From the NCBI RefSeq assembly GCF_001570605.1, contig NZ_BBXG01000007.1, positions 366,042-430,041 of the forward strand: DNA of 64,000 bases. Direction: 5' to 3'. This DNA is from Herbidospora cretacea (GTDB lineage Bacteria > Actinomycetota > Actinomycetes > Streptosporangiales > Streptosporangiaceae). Both the position numbers and the translations under genes were made by a program. Under the pieces are notes generated by a model, which worked only from the letters and a program-made list of their open reading frames with translations, was not told the DNA's origin and did no database searches. Positions 1 through 9,567 of this stretch are shown here, in pieces. Numbering within the stretch: the first letter of the stretch is position 1; every line of letters begins with the position of its first letter.

Positions 1-1901
1 GCGGTTATCGCGGAATCGGCGAGTCGGGCGGCCGCTGCCCCATCTCCGGCCTGCATCTCGACCAGAGCCGCGTAGAGAAGGGCTGGACCGTGTTCGGCCG
101 TGGTCGCGCGGACGGCGGTGATCTCCTCGCGCGCTTTGTCGATGTCGCCGGACAGGGCCAAGGCGTAGGCGTAGGCGGCCCTGACCTGTGGCTCGCGTAT
201 CGGCCGGATCCTGGCGAAGTCGCGCAATGCGTCGTCCGGCCGGCCCAGCGAGAGGAGGATCTCGGCGCGGGCGCGGAGGGCGGGCCAGGAGTTGGCGTCC
301 TCGTCGAGGACACGGTCGAGCGTCTCGCGTGCGGAATGCGCGTGGCCGCCGTACCAGTAGGTCCAGGCCAGCTCGATGGGAATCCCGGGGTCGTCGGGGA
401 CCCGCTCGATGGCGGACCTCAGGTCCTGGATCGCCCGCCGGGTCTCACCGAGGGCGCGCCGCGCCCGGCCGATGGCGGCCAGGAGGCGTCCCACGGTCTC
501 CTTCCGGCCGTGGGTCTCGAAGAGTCCGGCCGCCTCCTGAAGATGATCGATCGCTGTGCGGTACTGCCCTTCGTCGAAGGCCACATCGCCCAGGAACGAC
601 TCGATCTCGGCTTTCAGCCGGGAGGAGTCGGTCCGGTCGAGCGCGTCCCTGGCGTCACGGCGGGCACGGGCGAAGTCGCCCTCCCGACGGGCGTGCTGAG
701 CGGAGTGCAGGAGCTGCTGGGGGGTCCGGAGGTCGACGGCGAGGATGTCCTCGACGTCTGCACGGATGAGGCGGACGAGGCTTTCGTGTGAGAGTTCGTA
801 CCAGCCGGAGACGTCGGGACGTGGGCTGAGAATGTGGTGGTCGACCAGAGCGGCGACCACGTCGTTCGGCAGCCCGGCGGTCAGGGTCTCGCCCCGGTAG
901 ACGGGGGCTTTGGCGGAGTCGACGACGAAGTTGGCGCGGAGCCACGCGCGCAGCCGGGCCGTGTCGCCGTCGAGGTGATCTCGGGCGACTTCGGCGATCG
1001 TCTGGTGGACGTATCGCTCCAGGGACTCGCGCACGTTGGCGTAGCGGATGACGTGTTCGGTGGTGATGCGGGTGATGTCCGGGGGCAGTGCCTTCCACAG
1101 GGCGGTGCAGACGACCTGGAGCTGCACCGGATCGATTCCCTTCGACTCCGGCTGGGCCTCCCGGCCCCCGTTCAGGTCGTCGACCAGATGCTGGGCGGCC
1201 GCGTCGTCGAAGGAGTGGCCGGTGCCGGTCAAGGGGCCCACGACGGCCTGAGTGGCGGCGAGCGGTTCGAGGGCGCCCAACGTGAAGCGGCCGCGGGTCA
1301 TGACGTCCTGGAGGCGGTCGCTCCGCAGGATCGCGTCCGCCTGGTCGTCTCTGATCGAGATCAGCACGCGCAGGTCCAGGTCCATGTGGAGGGCGTCGAC
1401 GAGCTGGTCGACGAACCACTCGTGGTAAGGCGCGCGGCGGTTGTTCCCCAGGAAGAGCTCCTCCGCCTGGTCGATCGCCGCCAGGCGGAGCACCGGATCG
1501 CCGTAGGGATCCTGCCGCAGCGGTCGGCGGCCGAAGAACCGCTTCAAAGTGAGGCCGGCCAGCAGCGACGGGCTCTCTCCGGGCGACCACGAGGACAGCA
1601 GCGCGTAAGTGTGCGGGTTGTGCTCGGGCAGCGCCGCAGAGGGCACCGTCGAGGTGTACGAGACTCTTCCCACCGGCAGGATGTCGTTCTGCGAAGGGTC
1701 CAGCAGGGGCATGACGCCCGCATTGATCAAGGAGGTCTTGCCCACGCCCGACGGGCCGTACAGGACCGTGATCTGGTTCGATCGCCACAGGTCGCAGACC
1801 TCGTGGGCCTCGCGTTCCCGGCCGAAGAACTTGCCGCTGTCCTGGCGGAGGAAGGCGCGCGGGCCGACGTAGGGTTCGAGAGTCGGAACTGGCCCGGTCA
1901 C
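1..1901 (-). CDS. STAND-family ATPase with C-terminal TPR-like repeats, 3' end outside window
   Basis: An open frame runs without a stop from a GTG at 1901 to the left edge, giving at least 633 residues. A Walker A motif (GPSGVGKT, about residues 49-56) follows an FFGRE signature, and an AIDQAEELF stretch near residue 140 fits the Walker B of novel STAND NTPase 1 proteins. From about residue 370 the protein becomes alanine-rich helical repeats resembling TPRs. The GTG overlaps the stop of the SIR2 gene by 4 bases (GTGA), so the two are probably translationally coupled. STAND ATPases are signal-triggered oligomerising switches; the partner and effector role with SIR2 is inferred. The C terminus is not visible. 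Confidence 0.8.
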   Translation of the reverse strand, partial: MTGPVPTLEPYVGPRAFLRQDSGKFFGREREAHEVCDLWRSNQITVLYGPSGVGKTSLINAGVMPLLDPSQNDILPVGRVSYTSTVPSAALPEHNPHTYALLSSWSPGESPSLLAGLTLKRFFGRRPLRQDPYGDPVLRLAAIDQAEELFLGNNRRAPYHEWFVDQLVDALHMDLDLRVLISIRDDQADAILRSDRLQDVMTRGRFTLGALEPLAATQAVVGPLTGTGHSFDDAAAQHLVDDLNGGREAQPESKGIDPVQLQVVCTALWKALPPDITRITTEHVIRYANVRESLERYVHQTIAEVARDHLDGDTARLRAWLRANFVVDSAKAPVYRGETLTAGLPNDVVAALVDHHILSPRPDVSGWYELSHESLVRLIRADVEDILAVDLRTPQQLLHSAQHARREGDFARARRDARDALDRTDSSRLKAEIESFLGDVAFDEGQYRTAIDHLQEAAGLFETHGRKETVGRLLAAIGRARRALGETRRAIQDLRSAIERVPDDPGIPIELAWTYWYGGHAHSARETLDRVLDEDANSWPALRARAEILLSLGRPDDALRDFARIRPIREPQVRAAYAYALALSGDIDKAREEITAVRATTAEHGPALLYAALVEMQAGDGAAAARLADSAIT

Positions 1902-2794
1902 GACATGGCTCCCATCCGATCACGCAATTCGGTGCAGAAGTCCTCGATGCCGCCCCAGTAGACCGTGATCTGCCATTCGCGGTAATACCAGGACAGTTGA
2001 CGCTCCAGGTCTTCGACCGTCCAGCCCGAGGCGTCGCCGGGGGCGAGTTGCACGCTCACATGGCGGCGCCTGCTGAGGGCGGGGATCGACCGGCCGAGTT
2101 CCGCGAACATGGCCCGGGTCGTCCAGTCCTGAAGGCTGTATCCGATGAAGAGCAGCGGGCGGGTGGTCAGCGCCGCCAGGATCGACGGGGGGAACATGCG
2201 GTTGCCGCCGATCTTGCGTTCGATGGCGAGATTGCGCAGGAACATCATGTAGTCGTCCTCGGCCAGCACGAACGTGGCCGGATCGCGCATCGCGCCGTGC
2301 AGATGGTAGACGAGCGGGGTCGACGGACTCGGGTTCCAGCCTTCCGCGTCCTTGAACAGCGGGTCGGGGACGATGGCCTCGTTCCAGGGGCAGATGGCAG
2401 CTCTGGCCGCCTTCCTGCGGGTTGCCAGCGCCTGGACGATGAAGTCGTCGTAGTTGGTGGTCAGGTAGACCGGCAGGGGGAAATCGGCCAGCACCGCATG
2501 GGGCTCGTTGTGGTCGCCGAAGTCGGGGGTCCGGTCGCCTTTGGTCAGCTCGTCGCGGACCAGATATTTGACGTGGCTGAGGTCGCCGTAATCGAAGCTG
2601 GCGTATTGGGCGACTCGGGGGAGTTCGCTCGTCTCGGGGCCGGGATAGTCACACTTGGCCGCGAGCATCGTGCTGAGCTGGCGACCTGACGGGAGGACGC
2701 TCATCGAGGCGCCGGCGCCTACGAACGGGGTGCAGTGGCCGGTCCTCAATTGGTAAATGAGCCGCTCCCAATCTTTTTCGCTCATTCCGCCCAT
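1898..2794 (-). CDS. SIR2-like domain protein (putative NAD+-consuming effector)
   Basis: 298 residues. Seen are a Rossmann-type FVGAGAS loop (24-30), TTNYD (112-116), YHLHG with the candidate catalytic His166, and FIGYSLQD (216-223), the pattern of SIR2_2-type bacterial proteins. Asn114 and His166 match the NADase residues of SIR2 immune effectors. The ATG at 2794 is chosen because GAGGTGGAG lies about 6 bases upstream; a longer frame to 2914 adds 40 residues unlike the family. It lies 147 bases downstream of the fxsA peptide gene on the same strand and overlaps the following STAND ATPase gene. An NAD-depleting role is inferred; deacetylase activity is less likely from family and context. 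Confidence 0.8.
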   Translation of the reverse strand: MGGMSEKDWERLIYQLRTGHCTPFVGAGASMSVLPSGRQLSTMLAAKCDYPGPETSELPRVAQYASFDYGDLSHVKYLVRDELTKGDRTPDFGDHNEPHAVLADFPLPVYLTTNYDDFIVQALATRRKAARAAICPWNEAIVPDPLFKDAEGWNPSPSTPLVYHLHGAMRDPATFVLAEDDYMMFLRNLAIERKIGGNRMFPPSILAALTTRPLLFIGYSLQDWTTRAMFAELGRSIPALSRRRHVSVQLAPGDASGWTVEDLERQLSWYYREWQITVYWGGIEDFCTELRDRMGAMS

Positions 2795-2941
2795 GCACGG
2801 CTCCACCTCTTCGGCCCGATATCCGGTTCCGACTGTAGAGGCAGTCCTGCCGAGATGACCGGTGTCGTTTTTTCGGTTTCTCGGGCAGGTGGCCGGGAGG
2901 GCGCGGATCATCATTGGCTCACGACCCTCCCGCCGTTTCGA

Positions 2942-3082
2942 TCAGATGAAGTTCTGGAACCCCGAACTCGTCGTGGCAGGCTGTTCGACGAAGGGTTCCA
3001 GCAGTCCACGCAGGGTCGTGTAAGGAACCTCGTCGATCGAGTTCAGGAGTGGTTCGCCGGAAACCCGTTCAGCATCGATCAT
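2942..3082 (-). CDS. fxsA: FxSxx-COOH-type cyclophane RiPP precursor peptide
   Basis: A 46-residue reading frame between the SIR2 gene and the divergent TPR gene. The ATG at 3082 has a GGCGAGGA ribosome-binding site 4-5 bases upstream. The acidic leader contains LNSIDEVPYTTLRGLLEPF (residues 13-31), and the peptide ends GFQNFI. The last five residues, F-Q-N-F-I, match the FxSxx-COOH tail of FxsA precursors except for Asn in place of Ser. FxsB enzymes crosslink an aromatic residue to the residue two positions on, so Phe42-Gln43-Asn44 is the predicted cyclophane. Support comes from fxsB, the HExxH gene and fxsT nearby. Assignment by motif and context is strong; product structure is inferred. 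Confidence 0.8.
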   Translation of the reverse strand: MIDAERVSGEPLLNSIDEVPYTTLRGLLEPFVEQPATTSSGFQNFI

Positions 3083-3235
3083 GAATCCTCGCCTTCAGCG
3101 GCAGCCGATAAGAGAATTACGGTTGGCCGCCCTTCACGGCCTGGGCGCCATTGACGAACGTTGCTGTTTAGATGAGTTTTGAACAGGGTGTGGCAAGAAG
3201 CAAGCCATCTCTTCATCGAAGCAGCCGGAGGTCCG

Positions 3236-5764
3236 ATGGGCACCGAATCCTCCTCGCTCGCCGCGCATTCCCTGGGAGACAAACAACCGGAGATCTTCGA
3301 GCGGGTTCCGCCCAGAAACGGCAGCTTCACAGGGCGGGAGAGCCTGCTGCACCAGCTACGTGAGGGCACCCGGTCGGTGACCGCCGTCATCCCGCTTCCT
3401 CAGGCGCTGCAGGGTTACGGCGGCGTCGGCAAGACCCACCTGGCGATCGAGTACGCCCATCGCTATCGCTCTCACTATGACCTGGTCTGGTGGATTCCCG
3501 CGGACCAGTACTATCTGGTCCCTTCGGCGCTGGCCGCGTTGGCGCCCTATCTCCAATTGACTCCCGCCTCCGTCGTAGGTGTGGAGGAGGCGGCGGAGTC
3601 CGTGCGGGAGGCGCTGGAGAACGGGGCGCCGTACAACAACTGGCTGTTGATTTTCGACAATGCGGAAGACTCCCGCATCGAGAGGTTCATTCCGCGCGGC
3701 CCGGGCCATGTGATCATCACGTCCCGCAACCCGAATTGGGACGACCAATTCCGGTCTCTCCAGGTCGACGTGTTCACCCGGGACGAGAGCATCGAGTTCC
3801 TGACGAAAAGGCTGGGCGCGCGGATCACCAAAGACGAGGCGTTCCGGCTGGCCGACAAATTGGGCGATCTGCCGCTCGCCCTCGAACAGGTGGGTGCGTT
3901 GCAGCGGCGCGGCACGATGACGGTCGACGACTACATCGAACTGCTCGACAAACAGACGGCCCGGCTGCTGGGCGCGGAAAGAGCCAGGGATTATCCGCTG
4001 ACGATGACGGCCGCCTGGCGGGTCTCGGTGTCGCTGCTGGAAGAACGGCTGGAGATCGCGCTCAATCTGCTGCGCTGTTGCGCCTTCTTCGGGCCCGACC
4101 CCATTCCGCTCGACGTCTTCCGGCGGGGCAACAAGGCCAACGCTCCGAGTCTGGAGAAACTGCTGGCCGACCCCATCATGTTCGACAAGTCCGTGAAAGA
4201 GCTCAGCCGATACGCCCTCATCCGGAGCGACCCGGACAACCGCACCATCCAGGTGCACCGGCTGATCCAAGCCCTGCTGCGGGACGACCTCGACGAGGTC
4301 CGTCAGGACCGGCAGCGTGAGGAGGTGCACCGCCTGCTGGCCGGCAGCGCGCCGCAACTCCCGGACGACAACTCCAAGTGGCCGGACTTCGCCGACCTGG
4401 TCCCTCACGTCCGTCCGTCACGACTTCTCGAATCAAGTGAGCCCAGCGTCCGCGAGTTCGCTCTCAACGTCGTGCGTTATCTCTACTCATCAGGGAACTA
4501 CCGGTCGGCGCTGGAACTGGTCACCGCCTCCATCAAGGAGTGGGGCCGAACGCGGGAGAACCATCCCGACGTGCTCCGGGCCCGTCGGCATCAGGGGAAC
4601 ACTCTGCGCCGCATGGGCGAGTACGCCCAGGTGTACGACCTCGACCGCACCACCCTGGCGAACGTGATCGCCGAATTCGGCCCGGAACACGAGGAGACGC
4701 TGATCGCCAGGAACGGCCTCGGCGGCAGCATGCGGGCTCGGGGTGAGTTCCGGGAGGCGCTGGAACTCGACGAGGAGTCGGTCAGTCAGCATGAGCGGCT
4801 GCTCGGCGACGACAACGTCCTCACCCTGCGGGCGAAGAACAGCCTGGCCCTCGACTACGGCCTGAACAGCCAGTACGAACGGGCCAGGCGGCTGCACACC
4901 GAGGTCTATCTGGCCCAGAGCGAGGCGATCAACCCGGCCAGCTCCGAGATCGTGCTGCTCTCGCGCAACAGCATGGCCAGGGCCGTCCGGCTCACGAGCG
5001 GTTTCGAGGAGGCTTGTGACACCGGTGAGGACGCACTGGCGTTCGGCGTTCTGAAACTGGGCCGCGACCACTGGGCCACGCTGATGACCGCCAAGGACCT
5101 GTCGATCGCCCAGCGGCGGGCGGGCGCCCTTGAACAGGCCATCTCCATCGCCAGAGACACCCACGCCCGGCTGGCCCGGCTGTTCGGCCCCCGTCACCCC
5201 GACACGATCGCGGCGGCCGTGAACGTCTCCAACGCCCTGCGGGTCCGTGGCGATCTCGCCGAGGCGTACGAACTGGCGGAGGAGATGACCCGGGCCTACC
5301 CTGCGGTCTTCGGCGAGGATCATCCGTTCACGCTCGCCTGCCGGACCAACCTGGCGATCCTGCACCGCCTGCTCGGCGATCCCCGGAAGGCCCGGGAGAT
5401 CAACGAGGCCGCCCGTGAGGGGCTGACCGCCCGGCTGGGCCCGGAACACCACTACGTGTCGTCGTGCACGGTGAACATGGCCAGCGACCTGGCCGCCCTG
5501 GGCGAATCCGAGCAGGCCAGGGCGCTGGGCGAGCGCACACTCGAAGACCTCACGGAGCGGTTCGGGCGCGACCACTTCCTGACCCTGTCGTGCGCGGCCA
5601 ACCTGGTTCTCGACCGGGTCGAGACCGACGCGCCCGACGCGGACAAGCTGAGAGCCGAGGTGACGGACCTCTATCAGGAACGGTTCGAGCAGGGCCAGCC
5701 CGACGCGGTGACCGCCGCGTCGAGCATCAGGATCGACTGCGACTTCGACCCGCTACCGATCTGA
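3236..5764 (+). CDS. fxsT: FxSxx-COOH system NB-ARC/tetratricopeptide repeat protein
   Basis: 842 residues. An NB-ARC ATPase has Walker A GYGGVGKT (60-67), Walker B LLIFDNAED (137-145) and a GDLPLALEQ motif near 215. A helical region follows, and from about residue 430 to the end there are roughly nine kinesin-light-chain-like TPRs with recurring G-(P/R)-x-H-x-x-T signatures. This is the architecture of the TPR proteins encoded beside FxsA/FxsB. The ATG at 3236 is preferred because GGAGG lies 4 bases upstream; a start at 3179 is possible. It is divergent from fxsA and its end overlaps the convergent HExxH gene by 12 bases. Likely a signal-sensing switch; its ligand is unknown. Confidence 0.78.
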   Translation: MGTESSSLAAHSLGDKQPEIFERVPPRNGSFTGRESLLHQLREGTRSVTAVIPLPQALQGYGGVGKTHLAIEYAHRYRSHYDLVWWIPADQYYLVPSALAALAPYLQLTPASVVGVEEAAESVREALENGAPYNNWLLIFDNAEDSRIERFIPRGPGHVIITSRNPNWDDQFRSLQVDVFTRDESIEFLTKRLGARITKDEAFRLADKLGDLPLALEQVGALQRRGTMTVDDYIELLDKQTARLLGAERARDYPLTMTAAWRVSVSLLEERLEIALNLLRCCAFFGPDPIPLDVFRRGNKANAPSLEKLLADPIMFDKSVKELSRYALIRSDPDNRTIQVHRLIQALLRDDLDEVRQDRQREEVHRLLAGSAPQLPDDNSKWPDFADLVPHVRPSRLLESSEPSVREFALNVVRYLYSSGNYRSALELVTASIKEWGRTRENHPDVLRARRHQGNTLRRMGEYAQVYDLDRTTLANVIAEFGPEHEETLIARNGLGGSMRARGEFREALELDEESVSQHERLLGDDNVLTLRAKNSLALDYGLNSQYERARRLHTEVYLAQSEAINPASSEIVLLSRNSMARAVRLTSGFEEACDTGEDALAFGVLKLGRDHWATLMTAKDLSIAQRRAGALEQAISIARDTHARLARLFGPRHPDTIAAAVNVSNALRVRGDLAEAYELAEEMTRAYPAVFGEDHPFTLACRTNLAILHRLLGDPRKAREINEAAREGLTARLGPEHHYVSSCTVNMASDLAALGESEQARALGERTLEDLTERFGRDHFLTLSCAANLVLDRVETDAPDADKLRAEVTDLYQERFEQGQPDAVTAASSIRIDCDFDPLPI

Positions 5765-7024
5765 GGCTCCGTGCCGGGCCTCCCAGGCGGCCCGGTGGTC
5801 TGCCGCCGCCTGCCGGGCGGCGGCCAGGGCCTCCTCGTCGAGGGGTTCGGCCAGTACCGTTCCCAGCCGGGTGCGCATGCCTTCGACGAAACTCATTCCC
5901 GCGTCGTTCAGAAGGCGTTCGTCCTCCAGGGTGTCCAGGACGGCCTGGACCCCCTCCCGCCACCGGGCGAGCTCGATGCGGCCCCGGAGACCCTCGTACC
6001 GATGCTGGCGCTGCCAGAACTCGGTCACGCCCAGATAGGCGTAGGCGCCCTGGAGCAGGCCGTGGGCCGGGCGGGGGTCGGGGCGCCAGGGGGCGTAGTA
6101 GGTCTCGGTCCTCTCGTAGCGGATCAGCGGGACCAGGTGCATGAGGGCGTCGAGTTTGGCGTGCTGGATTTCGTGCGCGAACGTCTCGGCGAGCCAGACC
6201 GGTGAGCCGGTGGGCGCGGACATGGCGATCGTGCCGAACGTCTCCCGGGCCGAGGCGCTGCTCACGCCCTCCGCCGGCGCGGTCATCGGAGTGAGAGCCC
6301 GTACGATCGCGACGATCTCCTCGGTGACGCCCAGGTGGTTCGCCCGCAGGACGTGCCAGGCCTCGGGGAGCAGGGAACGCCAGGTCGCCAGCGCGCCGGG
6401 GCCGACCCGGGAGGTGACGCGGCCGGACTCGGGCCAGCGGTAGGGATCGAGGTCGTCCAGCACGACGGAGAAACCGTCGCCCACGGCGATTCGGCGCAGC
6501 GCCTCCCAGCCCGGTGCGTCGGCCGTCGGATCCACTTCGGCGCTCCAGTCCCGGGCCCGGAGAGAACGGCCCGCGACCTCGATGTCCTCCGAGGTGCCGC
6601 CGGGGCTCAGCCGCCCGAGACCGGGCAGCATCAAGCCGCCGTCATCGTCGAGCAGCACTCTCACCTCGCAGGTCGCGCCCGAGGCGACGGCCGCCGCCAC
6701 GGTGATCGCGCCGAGCCGGGCGGGGCGTTCCCCTCCGCGTCCACGGAGAGAACGGAAGGTCCGCCAGGCCCACGCGCCGACGGTGGGATGCCGGGTGATC
6801 CGGTTCACCGCGGCCGGGGCTGCGGCCTCCAGTTCCAGCAGGACCGTGTAGGCCTTCTTGGCCAGGGCGGCATCCGGATGGTCCGACGCCTTGGATTCCT
6901 CGACCACGCCCTTCAGCAGGCCGAGCCGGCGGCGGACCTGGAGGCCGTTGAGCTCCTCGGCCGCCTCCGCGTTGGCGGGTTCCTCGGCCAGCGCGCGGAA
7001 GGTCTTGCCGGAGACCGTCTTCAT
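5753..7024 (-). CDS. HExxH-motif putative peptide beta-hydroxylase of the fxs cluster
   Basis: 423 residues, with HEIQH at 284-288, the two-histidine metal motif that names the HExxH proteins paired with FxsB-type radical SAM enzymes. Family naming points to an alpha-ketoglutarate-dependent beta-hydroxylase of RiPP peptides rather than a protease. The N-terminal 120 residues are helical and charged, the middle is beta-rich, and the C terminus is again helical. Its start overlaps the fxsB stop by 4 bases, so the two are one operon. The predicted substrate is the peptide at 2942-3082, possibly after crosslinking. The hydroxylated residue cannot be told from sequence. Confidence 0.75.
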   Translation of the reverse strand: MKTVSGKTFRALAEEPANAEAAEELNGLQVRRRLGLLKGVVEESKASDHPDAALAKKAYTVLLELEAAAPAAVNRITRHPTVGAWAWRTFRSLRGRGGERPARLGAITVAAAVASGATCEVRVLLDDDGGLMLPGLGRLSPGGTSEDIEVAGRSLRARDWSAEVDPTADAPGWEALRRIAVGDGFSVVLDDLDPYRWPESGRVTSRVGPGALATWRSLLPEAWHVLRANHLGVTEEIVAIVRALTPMTAPAEGVSSASARETFGTIAMSAPTGSPVWLAETFAHEIQHAKLDALMHLVPLIRYERTETYYAPWRPDPRPAHGLLQGAYAYLGVTEFWQRQHRYEGLRGRIELARWREGVQAVLDTLEDERLLNDAGMSFVEGMRTRLGTVLAEPLDEEALAAARQAAADHRAAWEARHGASDR

Positions 7025-8286
7025 ACACGTCCCTCCAGTCGGGCGGTGTCACGAGCGTGCCGTTCCCTGATGTACGAGATCAGCCGGTACAGGTCGGGGC
7101 AGTACACCGAAGGACCGAGGAAACCGGTGGCCGGGCGGAACCGGTGGGCGTAGAGGCCGCCGCCGCAGGTGTTGACCAGATCGCACCGGCGGCATTCCGG
7201 GCCGAGCGCCCGTACGCCGAGTTGCCTGGCCGCGATGGCCGGATGGCCGAGGGCGTCGTCGAAGGCGGCGGTCAGCACGTGCAGGCCGGTGGCGGAAGCG
7301 CCCTCGAAAGCGGATTTGAGGATGTCCGACTGCTCAATGGCGCCGTTCGTCTCGACCACGACCATTGACGCCGGCGACAGCCCCACGGATTCGCTCCGCG
7401 AGTCGCCTCCCGAAAGCAGCCGAATGATCTCGTGGAAGAGCCGGATCTCGGTACGGAACCTCGGCGTCTCCCGCCACTCGTCGAAAATACGGATGAGCCA
7501 ATCGGCATAAGGTGTCGCGGTGGAATCGGCGTCGCGCCAGGGCGGTGGCGCTGCCCAGTTGCCGTGCGGGAGCAGGAAATCGACACTCGGCGGATCGAAT
7601 TCCAGCAATGCGCGATAGGTGGCTATGGGATCGTTGCGCAGGTCGATCGTGCACAGAAGCCCGGCGAACAAATGGTGAAACGGCCCTTCGAGCAGTCTCA
7701 GCGCCCGGCTGACCCGTTCGTGACTGCCCCGGCCGTTGGCGAAGACCCGGGTGCGGTCGTGGGCCACGGCGTCGCCGTCGAGACTCACCCCGACGCGTAT
7801 CTCCAGGTCGTGGAAGAGTTTGAGGTAGGTCTCGTCGAGCCGGACCGCGTTGGTCTGCATGCTCACCCGGACCCGGGTGCCCACCTCGGAGCACGCGCCG
7901 CGAATGGTCCGCACGATGTGCTCGAGCGATTCCGGCCCGGCCAGAAGCGGTTCCCCGCCGTGCAGGATGACGTCGATATCGGGCAGCCGATGGGTCCGCG
8001 CGTGTTCCGCGATGCGGAAAGCGGTGCTCGCCACGACGGCCGGTGACATTTGACGCGGCTGGGTTCGCCAGCTCTGGTCGGCCATTTCATACACGTAGCA
8101 GCCGGGGCAGGCGAGATCACATCGGCTGTGCACCTTGAGGATGAACTGCCGAAAGGCGGACGGGCGCCATCCCGAGGCCAGCAATTCCGCGACGTCGAGG
8201 TTTGCCGGAAACACGTTTTCGGGCGGCGGGATTGTGGGTTCTTGGTTGTTCGACAACCGGGACACCCTTCTTTGCGCCAACCCCAT
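7021..8286 (-). CDS. fxsB: FxsB-family radical SAM/SPASM cyclophane-forming peptide maturase
   Basis: 421 residues. The radical SAM cluster motif is C-x3-C-x2-C (CDLACPGC, Cys56, Cys60, Cys63), followed by an ILHGGEPLL segment that fits SAM binding. A SPASM-type cysteine set lies near the C terminus (CRRCDLVNTCGGG, then YCPDLY), as expected for auxiliary iron-sulfur clusters. Sequence flavour and neighbours place it in the FxsB family, which forms three-residue cyclophanes between an aromatic ring and the residue two positions later. The ATG at 8286 follows AGGGCG. It is the first gene of a two-gene minus-strand operon with the HExxH gene. The target is most likely the 46-residue peptide 4 kb away on the same strand. 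Confidence 0.85.
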   Translation of the reverse strand: MGLAQRRVSRLSNNQEPTIPPPENVFPANLDVAELLASGWRPSAFRQFILKVHSRCDLACPGCYVYEMADQSWRTQPRQMSPAVVASTAFRIAEHARTHRLPDIDVILHGGEPLLAGPESLEHIVRTIRGACSEVGTRVRVSMQTNAVRLDETYLKLFHDLEIRVGVSLDGDAVAHDRTRVFANGRGSHERVSRALRLLEGPFHHLFAGLLCTIDLRNDPIATYRALLEFDPPSVDFLLPHGNWAAPPPWRDADSTATPYADWLIRIFDEWRETPRFRTEIRLFHEIIRLLSGGDSRSESVGLSPASMVVVETNGAIEQSDILKSAFEGASATGLHVLTAAFDDALGHPAIAARQLGVRALGPECRRCDLVNTCGGGLYAHRFRPATGFLGPSVYCPDLYRLISYIRERHARDTARLEGRV

Positions 8287-8362: not shown

Positions 8363-8716
8363 CTAGGCCACCGGGGTGATCTGGAAGACCGCCGCCCGCC
8401 ACGTCCCCGCGTCGTTCCGGACCAGCGTCGTCGTCGCGTAGACGGTCATCGTCCCGCGTGCGGAGTCGATCTCCACGCGGGACGAATGAACCACGCTGGA
8501 GTCGGTGAGGGTCACGACCCGGTGCTCCGACTGGTCCGTCCGCGTGTACGGGTTCTCGTTCTCCGCGAAGGTCCGCAATATCGCGGCACGATCCGTCTCC
8601 ACCCCCCAAGGCGAGATCGCCACCGGATCGTCGGTCAGATACGAGTCGTAGAAGGCGGCGTCCCCGTCCCGGTTGGCCTTCCAGGCACGCTCGCTGAGTT
8701 CGATGAAGAAGTCCAT
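8363..8716 (-). CDS. SnoaL-like/NTF2-fold protein
   Basis: 117 residues with the one-domain pattern of NTF2/SnoaL-like proteins: an N-terminal helix (FIELSERAW), a DSYLTDDPVAI strand-turn, and C-terminal strands ending WRAAVFQITPV. The ATG at 8716 has AGAGGA 7 bases upstream; a longer frame to 8779 has no good site. It is divergent from the sigma factor gene at 8752, whose own C terminus has the same fold, so the two may be functionally linked. No catalytic residues can be assigned with confidence; ligand binding or polyketide-cyclase-like chemistry are the usual possibilities. Confidence 0.7.
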   Translation of the reverse strand: MDFFIELSERAWKANRDGDAAFYDSYLTDDPVAISPWGVETDRAAILRTFAENENPYTRTDQSEHRVVTLTDSSVVHSSRVEIDSARGTMTVYATTTLVRNDAGTWRAAVFQITPVA

Positions 8717-8751
8717 GTCACATCCTCTTGCCCTGATTCGTTCTTGTAGAC

Positions 8752-9567
8752 GTGGAACCGTATGTGGCGATGAGGCCAAGACTTGTCCGCTTGGCCTACG
8801 GCCTGCTGGGCGATCTCCAAGAGTCCGAGGACGTCGTCCAGGACGCCTGGCTACGCCTGGCGCGGGCCGAGGAGCAGCCCGAAGACGTCGAAGGCTGGCT
8901 CGTGGTCACCGTCTCCAGACTGGCCCTGGACGTCCTCAAATCCGCCCGTAAGCGCAGAGAGGAATACGTAGGCCCCTGGCTCCCCGAGCCGATCGTCGAC
9001 GCCGATCCCGCCGACCGGGTCACCCTCGACGAGTCCCTCAGCCTCGCCATGTTCGTGGTCCTCGAAAGCCTCAGCCCGGCCGAACGCACCGCTTTCGTCC
9101 TGCACGACGTCTTCGGCGTCCCCTTCGACGAGATTGCCCGCGCGGTGGGCCGGACCCCGGCCGCCTGCCGGCAGCTCGCCAACAGGGCCCGGCGACACGT
9201 CCAGGAGAAGGCCCCCAGGTTCGATGTCGACGTGGCCGATCACAAGCGGGTGGTCGACGCATTCGCGGCCGCCTGCGAGGGGAGGGACGTCGAGGGGCTG
9301 CTCGCCGTGCTCGACCCCGATGTGGTCCTGCGCAGCGACGGGGGCGGGCTCGTCCGGGCGGCGCTGCGGCCGGTCGTAGGGGCGGACAGGGTCGCGCGGT
9401 TCCTGATCGGGATCCAGCAGGGCGGCTTCCGGGCGGTCACGGTCAACGGGCTGCCGGGGCTGGTCCGTGACCATCAGCTCGCCGTGTACGGGCTGGCGGT
9501 CAGACAGGGACGAATCGTCGAGGTCGACATCGTCCGCAATCCAGAGAAACTGAGGAGTCTGCGATGA
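8752..9567 (+). CDS. SigJ-type ECF sigma factor with C-terminal SnoaL-like domain
   Basis: 271 residues. Region 2 (LRPRLVRLAYGLLGD-type start, EDVVQDAWLRL) and region 4 (LSPAERTAFVLHDVFGVPFDEIA) occupy about residues 7-160, followed by a SnoaL-like domain (about 165-271) typical of the SigJ/ECF41 group, where it regulates the sigma factor in place of a separate anti-sigma factor. Translation starts at GTG 8752 with no clear ribosome-binding site, so the message may be nearly leaderless. It overlaps the AhpD-like gene by 4 bases (ATGA), the classical ECF41 partner. The gene is divergent from a stand-alone SnoaL-like gene. Confidence 0.85.
   Translation: MEPYVAMRPRLVRLAYGLLGDLQESEDVVQDAWLRLARAEEQPEDVEGWLVVTVSRLALDVLKSARKRREEYVGPWLPEPIVDADPADRVTLDESLSLAMFVVLESLSPAERTAFVLHDVFGVPFDEIARAVGRTPAACRQLANRARRHVQEKAPRFDVDVADHKRVVDAFAAACEGRDVEGLLAVLDPDVVLRSDGGGLVRAALRPVVGADRVARFLIGIQQGGFRAVTVNGLPGLVRDHQLAVYGLAVRQGRIVEVDIVRNPEKLRSLR

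Follow-up and report, generated by a model that had tools for sequence, protein, structure and literature searches.

The question raised by this locus is whether a frame of 46 residues ending in F-Q-N-F-I encodes a genuine RiPP precursor of the FxsA type, with Asn in place of the motif Ser, and on what its product might act. In the window, by which we mean the whole stretch of 64,000 nucleotides of Herbidospora cretacea DNA that was analysed, the frame lies among the following features:

3 to 1901, minus strand: nSTAND1 NTPase with TPRs; it runs off the window, and its GTG start and the SIR2 stop share 4 bases
1898 to 2914, minus strand: SIR2-like, ThsA-like protein, the next gene 3' of the precursor; its conserved part begins at the ATG at 2794
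2942 to 3082, minus strand: FxsA-type RiPP precursor of 46 aa, tail GFQNFI-COOH, assigned from ORF translation, conservation and position
2945 to 2959, minus strand: tail codons F42-Q43-N44-F45-I46, with a cross-link predicted from Phe42 to the beta carbon of Asn44
3087 to 3095, minus strand: Shine-Dalgarno-like sequence AAGGCGAGG, 5' of the precursor start
3236 to 5764, plus strand: FxsT, NB-ARC/TPR protein of the FxSxx-COOH system; the frame is open from 3179 and the likely start is the ATG at 3236
5753 to 7024, minus strand: alpha-KG HExxH-type peptide beta-hydroxylase, with an intact HEIQH
7021 to 8286, minus strand: FxsB, radical SAM/SPASM cyclophane-forming maturase, overlapping the HExxH gene by 4 bases

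Translation of the minus strand over 2942-3082 gives MIDAERVSGEPLLNSIDEVPYTTLRGLLEPFVEQPATTSSGFQNFI; the plus-strand reading of the same positions yields a different product, which is not the precursor peptide. A Shine-Dalgarno-like stretch, GGCGAGG, ends 4 bases 5' of the ATG, and the leader is acidic (seven D/E vs two R, counted from the translation). The preliminary description had read a 46-residue precursor here, with a ribosome-binding site, an acidic leader and an Asn-for-Ser C terminus, and each of these readings holds: the ORF by conservation, position and shuffles that all exceed chance (see below), and the tail by an Asn fixed in close relatives. That description gave no strand for the precursor and overlooked the conserved SIR2-nSTAND1 context.

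The neighbouring products were scored against curated models. FxsT reaches 949 bits against NF040586 (cut-off 300), the HExxH protein 143.8 bits against TIGR04267 (cut-off 40) and the SIR2-like protein 91.5 bits against PF13289 (SIR2_2, cut-off 24.5). FxsB, already placed at 7021-8286 in the preliminary description, is intact and scores 475.2 bits against TIGR04269 (cut-off 370); other maturase models gave 330 bits for YhhB, below its cut-off of 445, 105 for XyeB and 74 for GrrM/OscB. Its six cluster-type cysteines (CxxxCxxC plus three near the C-terminus) are kept, and are invariant in 59 of 59 proteins, as are the H, E and H of HExxH in 61 of 61. In the SIR2 protein, two residues are kept in 70 of 70, the Asn in TTNYD and the second His in HLHG; these we take, by comparison with ThsA, to be the catalytic residues. 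Among the solved relatives of FxsB, ChlB is nearest in sequence (E 3e-69); a paper title within the reference list of PMC12636437 calls it a multiple cyclophane synthase. A peptidase reading of the HExxH protein, which follows PMC7159879, where the available text calls the zincin-like protein a metallopeptidase, was set aside; NCBIfam makes it a beta-hydroxylase, and the accessible part of the preprint PMC12636437 agrees, while also reporting backbone cleavage by two such HExxH enzymes.

At the left edge, the nSTAND1-TPR gene is missing from the list of closed ORFs because the window edge cuts it. Three frames there that might have been conserved upstream genes (90-791 and 834-1961 on the plus strand, 655-1923 on the minus strand) have their high-GC codon position in the wrong place and were dropped, since the overlapping minus-strand nSTAND1 frame explains them. 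At the other end, an ORF at 8363-8779 (minus strand) adjoins a SigJ-like sigma factor gene at 8752-9567 (plus strand) with a weak SnoaL-like C-terminal match, and this pair also stands beside FxsB in loci L030, L031, L032 and L034.

The peptide is conserved within the genus. It was found in six of seven genomes, that of the window included, with seven copies in total, and all six carry a linked FxsB. The seven-copy alignment keeps LN, E, PY, LRG and SSGFQNF invariant; the C terminus GF-x-N-F-[I/M] does not vary, and GF-x-NF is identical across eight aligned copies. Over the last 35 codons dN/dS lies between 0.08 and 0.59 (25 of 28 pairs gave a value, three none), individual pair values being rough on so short a stretch. 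Such precursors occur in Herbidospora yilanensis, sakaeratensis, solisilvae, galbida and daliensis, while the three H. mongoliensis loci returned have Ser or Ala tails. A profile of the precursor matches 8 of 297 family genomes, again counting the window's own, and the same eight with none further among 345 genomes of the order; these are undercounts, as the profile does not report the Asn-tailed precursors of L137 and L159, which were found by position. Two profile-matched relatives lie outside the genus, with tails GFTNFI and GFQNSIEVAP; in both, the contig stops within FxsT and FxsB was not seen. Acrocarpospora macrocephala has the tail FTNFI, A. corrugata FQNSIEVAP and Streptosporangiaceae bacterium NEAU-GS5 FSNFI. 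All nine precursor copies examined sit between SIR2 and FxsT. Loss of the FxN/FxS pattern at orthologous positions had been named as what would count against the precursor; the pattern proved to be conserved, and the precursor reading stands.

The peptide takes its place in a conserved cassette. At E 1e-40, 56 of the 297 family genomes have the SIR2 protein, and we assembled 60 regions from the SIR2 list, nine others and the window (70 sequences). In 62 of these sequences SIR2 and FxsT stand divergently with less than 1.2 kb between them, 70 such pairs in all; the pairs are not independent, some coming from one genome or from near-identical relatives. Among the sequences that have no pair, L028 has no SIR2, FxsT was not found beside the SIR2 of L143 and L161, and L151, L162, L171, L172 and L177 show another arrangement. 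The order is FxsA, SIR2 and nSTAND1-TPR in one direction and FxsT in the other, with HExxH and FxsB beyond. The nSTAND1 gene follows SIR2 in 69 of 70 pairs, the sole exception being a contig end; a search out to 9 kb from each pair found FxsB at 59 and HExxH at 61, some contigs being too short. Two variations on this layout were seen: L033 (7806-17386) and L032 (7911-17293) carry tandem SIR2-(FxsA)-FxsT modules before a single HExxH-FxsB pair, and in L159 (9687-15989), a genus member with the tail FQNFL, FxsB is on the strand opposite to HExxH, against the usual order. The window's genome itself holds two more FXS sets, one with an FQASI tail (L028, 8496-8780) beside a 760-aa FxsB frame and one with an FQSSY tail (L029, 2143-2286) within a SIR2 cassette, so that its FQNFI, FQSSY and FQASI precursors each lie within about 5 kb of a different FxsB.

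On the SIR2 strand, 67 of the 70 divergent gaps hold a short ORF laid out like FxsA. One of the three gaps that lack such an ORF, 169 bp long, is in L032, in the module copy whose SIR2 is closest to that of the window. The third tail residue of the 67 positional homologs is Ser in 39, Ala in 12, Asn in 11 and Gln in 5, and only Q, D, S, T and N occur as the second. Thus the serine of FxSxx is not strict at the third tail position. At the third place the scan behind these counts permitted eight residues (S, N, A, Q, T, G, D and H); any other would have gone unnoticed, though just three gaps are left unexplained; no T, G, D or H remained after curation, and the tail labels of L139 and L159 were corrected by hand for trees and counts, the automatic call having fallen on an earlier Phe. 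The residue after Asn is Phe in 10 of 11 tails, whereas Phe follows the other third residues in 1 of 56, a pairing that rests on about three lineages, so that the small Fisher p-value overstates it. The Gln class, FxQS[IV]D, comprises L139, L142, L144, L147 and L174, with 12 to 17 residues from the Phe to the end, and its four loci with FxsB form a single clade on the FxsB tree.

The relationship to ordinary FxsA precursors required a closer look at sequence. A search of the peptide with FxsA models, which the preliminary description had suggested, did not recover it: hmmscan gave no match to TIGR04268, the curated FxSxx-COOH model (cut-off 28 bits), at E 1, and the precursor is absent from the 31 places listed for this model in the genome at E 10 (150 of 544 first-look candidates scored). 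The tail, FQNFI, departs from a strict C-terminal F-x-S-x-x. A profile trained on 56 non-Asn precursors, one of whose rows (L139) was off-register, puts the window peptide at the head of 929 window frames, but at E 0.15, and gives E 0.08 to 10 for the seven others in its close group. The same profile finds three other Asn-tailed precursors clearly (L036, E 2.7e-10; L159, 4.1e-8; L137, 5.3e-7). Since L036 (tail FQNSIEVAP) is also matched by A1, the profile of the window's clade, at E 3.8e-6, it bridges that clade and ordinary FxsA. The precursor thus appears to share homology as well as position with the FxSxx precursors, the sequence link being indirect, through L036. It resembles the FxsA/FxsB systems (TIGR04268/TIGR04269) in its short leader, its C-terminal Phe-x-(small or polar)-x-x and its linked FxsB, FxsT and HExxH; it differs in the Asn, followed by Phe, at the third position and in leaving TIGR04268 unmatched. 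As far as sequence can tell, the assignment of 2942-3082 as a true FxsA-type precursor with Asn replacing the motif Ser is well supported.

We built quick trees of FxsB and SIR2, with SH-aLRT as the sole support measure, on which the origin of the Asn tail can be followed. On the FxsB tree (eight Asn rows) Asn needs three changes, of which the starred branches force only one, so that tree is compatible with a single origin. On the SIR2 tree, nine of the 11 Asn rows and one precursor-less copy form one clade with 100% support, and the starred branches force four changes when the precursor-less copy is counted. L137 and L159 fall apart from the main Asn clade, and their placement is unsure because of long branches, on the SIR2 tree for both and on the FxsB tree for L159. 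Asn marks one well-supported clade, the window's, and besides it two lineages that stand apart without a secure place. When FxsB was searched for residues tracking the Asn tail, three weak columns emerged, none common to both outlying lineages.

What could the maturase do with such a tail? We take MscB to be an FXS enzyme, and MscB-type triceptides to be tied to the FxsA/FxsB family. In the available text of PMC11002830, MscB joins Phe C4 to the beta carbon of Ser, and for XncB and OscB the partner of Phe C4 is the beta carbon of an Asn two residues on, the very pair predicted here, although XyeB/XncB and GrrM/OscB belong to maturase families other than that of the window's FxsB. None of the four residues found at the third position (S, A, N and Q) is branched at the beta carbon, and a link there is compatible with them all. 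For the window peptide a Phe42-Asn44 cross-link, with the aromatic ring tied to the beta carbon of residue i+2 as in triceptides, is plausible. The preliminary description had proposed that an Asn tail extends the substrate motif; a fixed Asn variant does exist, but as one of four third residues, and with Phe-x-Asn cyclophanes already described in PMC11002830, as far as its accessible text goes, the extension is chemically modest. As a set, the natural S/A/N/Q tails also offer a substrate series suited to coupling at a beta carbon.

The reading that we favour, to which we assign a probability of about 0.68, is that of an Asn-tailed FxsA which acquires an FxsB cyclophane, possibly a hydroxylation, and regulates a suicide-type defence switch. 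FxsB (7021-8286) would bind the leader through LN..E.PY..LRG and couple the Phe42 ring with the Asn44 beta carbon; the product would be a C-terminal three-residue cyclophane, 2 Da lighter than the linear peptide. The HExxH enzyme may then beta-hydroxylate a ring residue, perhaps Gln43. The finished peptide would act on the neighbouring putative SIR2 NADase, the nSTAND1-TPR protein or FxsT, as regulator of a suicide-type, defence-like SIR2-STAND switch. A more specific version, that the cyclophane peptide is a licensing or inhibitory ligand of this NAD-depleting switch and that the Asn-Phe tail is a private 'key' preventing cross-reaction with the Ser and Ala copies of the same genome, is tentative and on balance doubtful.

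Other explanations were weighed against this reading. The frame could be fortuitous, as the GC-rich window is rich in short frames (125 of at least 35 aa overlap its first 16 kb); we consider this highly improbable given its conservation, codon pattern, ribosome site and position, and because shuffles reject it as well: of the 70 SIR2/FxsT gaps, 57 have a strict F-x-[SNAQ]-x-x-stop tail on the expected strand and 3 on the other, and the mean in Markov shuffles is 1.45 of 70. Less remote, though unlikely, is that the Asn tail makes the peptide a decoy or dead substrate which FxsB no longer cross-links and which acts unmodified, for instance as a small inhibitor of SIR2 or FxsT. Asn for the motif Ser, together with the Asn-Phe pairing, would mean that the whole tail has changed character, and some modules do without a precursor; against this, no peptide-bearing genome of the genus has lost its linked FxsB or the cluster cysteines of that enzyme, related enzyme families make Phe-Asn cyclophanes (PMC11002830, in its available text), and the pairing comes down to the few lineages mentioned above.

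We hold it equally unlikely that the peptide is an exported signal or an antibiotic-like triceptide, with the SIR2 and STAND genes as immunity or unrelated neighbours. Darobactin and dynobactin, which carry similar radical-made C-C cross-links, are antibiotics according to the accessible portions of PMC11002830 and PMC9055067. Export fits poorly, however, with the constancy of the FxsA-like ORF 5' of SIR2 on the same strand and of nSTAND1 after it, or with FxsT being an NB-ARC/TPR protein, and none of the window genes run against Pfam and NCBIfam was recognised as a transporter.

The regulatory reading gains context from SIR2-nSTAND1 pairs elsewhere. Pairs with no match to FxsB, FxsT or HExxH, on contigs that are partly short, extend into other phyla: they occur in MAGs titled Udaeobacter (L238), Chthoniobacterales (L248), Planctomycetota (L243), Planctomycetales (L252), Bryobacterales (L251), Xanthobacteraceae (L254) and Acidimicrobiia (L239) and in Actinophytocola xanthii (L253), so the peptide is not essential to the pair in general. 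An Acidobacteriaceae MAG (L249, 814-8740) has SIR2, nSTAND1, HExxH and FxsT, and FxsB was not found in its 8.8 kb. From this distribution we infer a defence-like, NAD-depleting SIR2-nSTAND1 core to which actinobacteria may have added control by a modified peptide. In PADLOC, the window's SIR2 matches the ThsA, PDC-S25 and LmuA models, and the nSTAND1 ortholog in L034 gave weak matches only. Like Thoeris ThsA and other SIR2 NADases (KomC), the window protein has a SIR2 domain, and its TTNYD and HG motifs align with ThsA; unlike them, it is a short separate protein followed by nSTAND1-TPR beside a RiPP system.

The nearest described arrangement is the peptide add-on to conflict systems of Kaur et al. 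2020 (PMC7159879), in whose available text an FxSxx peptide accompanies a radical SAM enzyme, a zincin-like protein and an AP-ATPase with TPRs. There, the FxSxx type with ternary systems has an AP-ATPase with an N-terminal TIR domain, unlike the SIR2 of the window, and the main text, as available, does not mention SIR2 or sirtuin. PMC8195603, the one paper found on both nSTAND1 and SIR2, mentions them, in its accessible part, in separate contexts. Our search, from whose scope preprints and most subscription papers fell out, found no literature on SIR2 and nSTAND1 combined with an FxSxx or radical SAM peptide system. At the level of sequence, the peptide is a well-supported variant of a known family of precursors; its cassette had no description in the literature searched. 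Kaur et al. proposed that such peptides are toxins or signals in conflict systems, the role of FxSxx peptides being only predicted in the papers that our search reached, and the precursor-SIR2-nSTAND1 order in 62 family sequences makes it concrete: a test would ask whether the modified peptide turns an NAD-depleting immune protein on or off.
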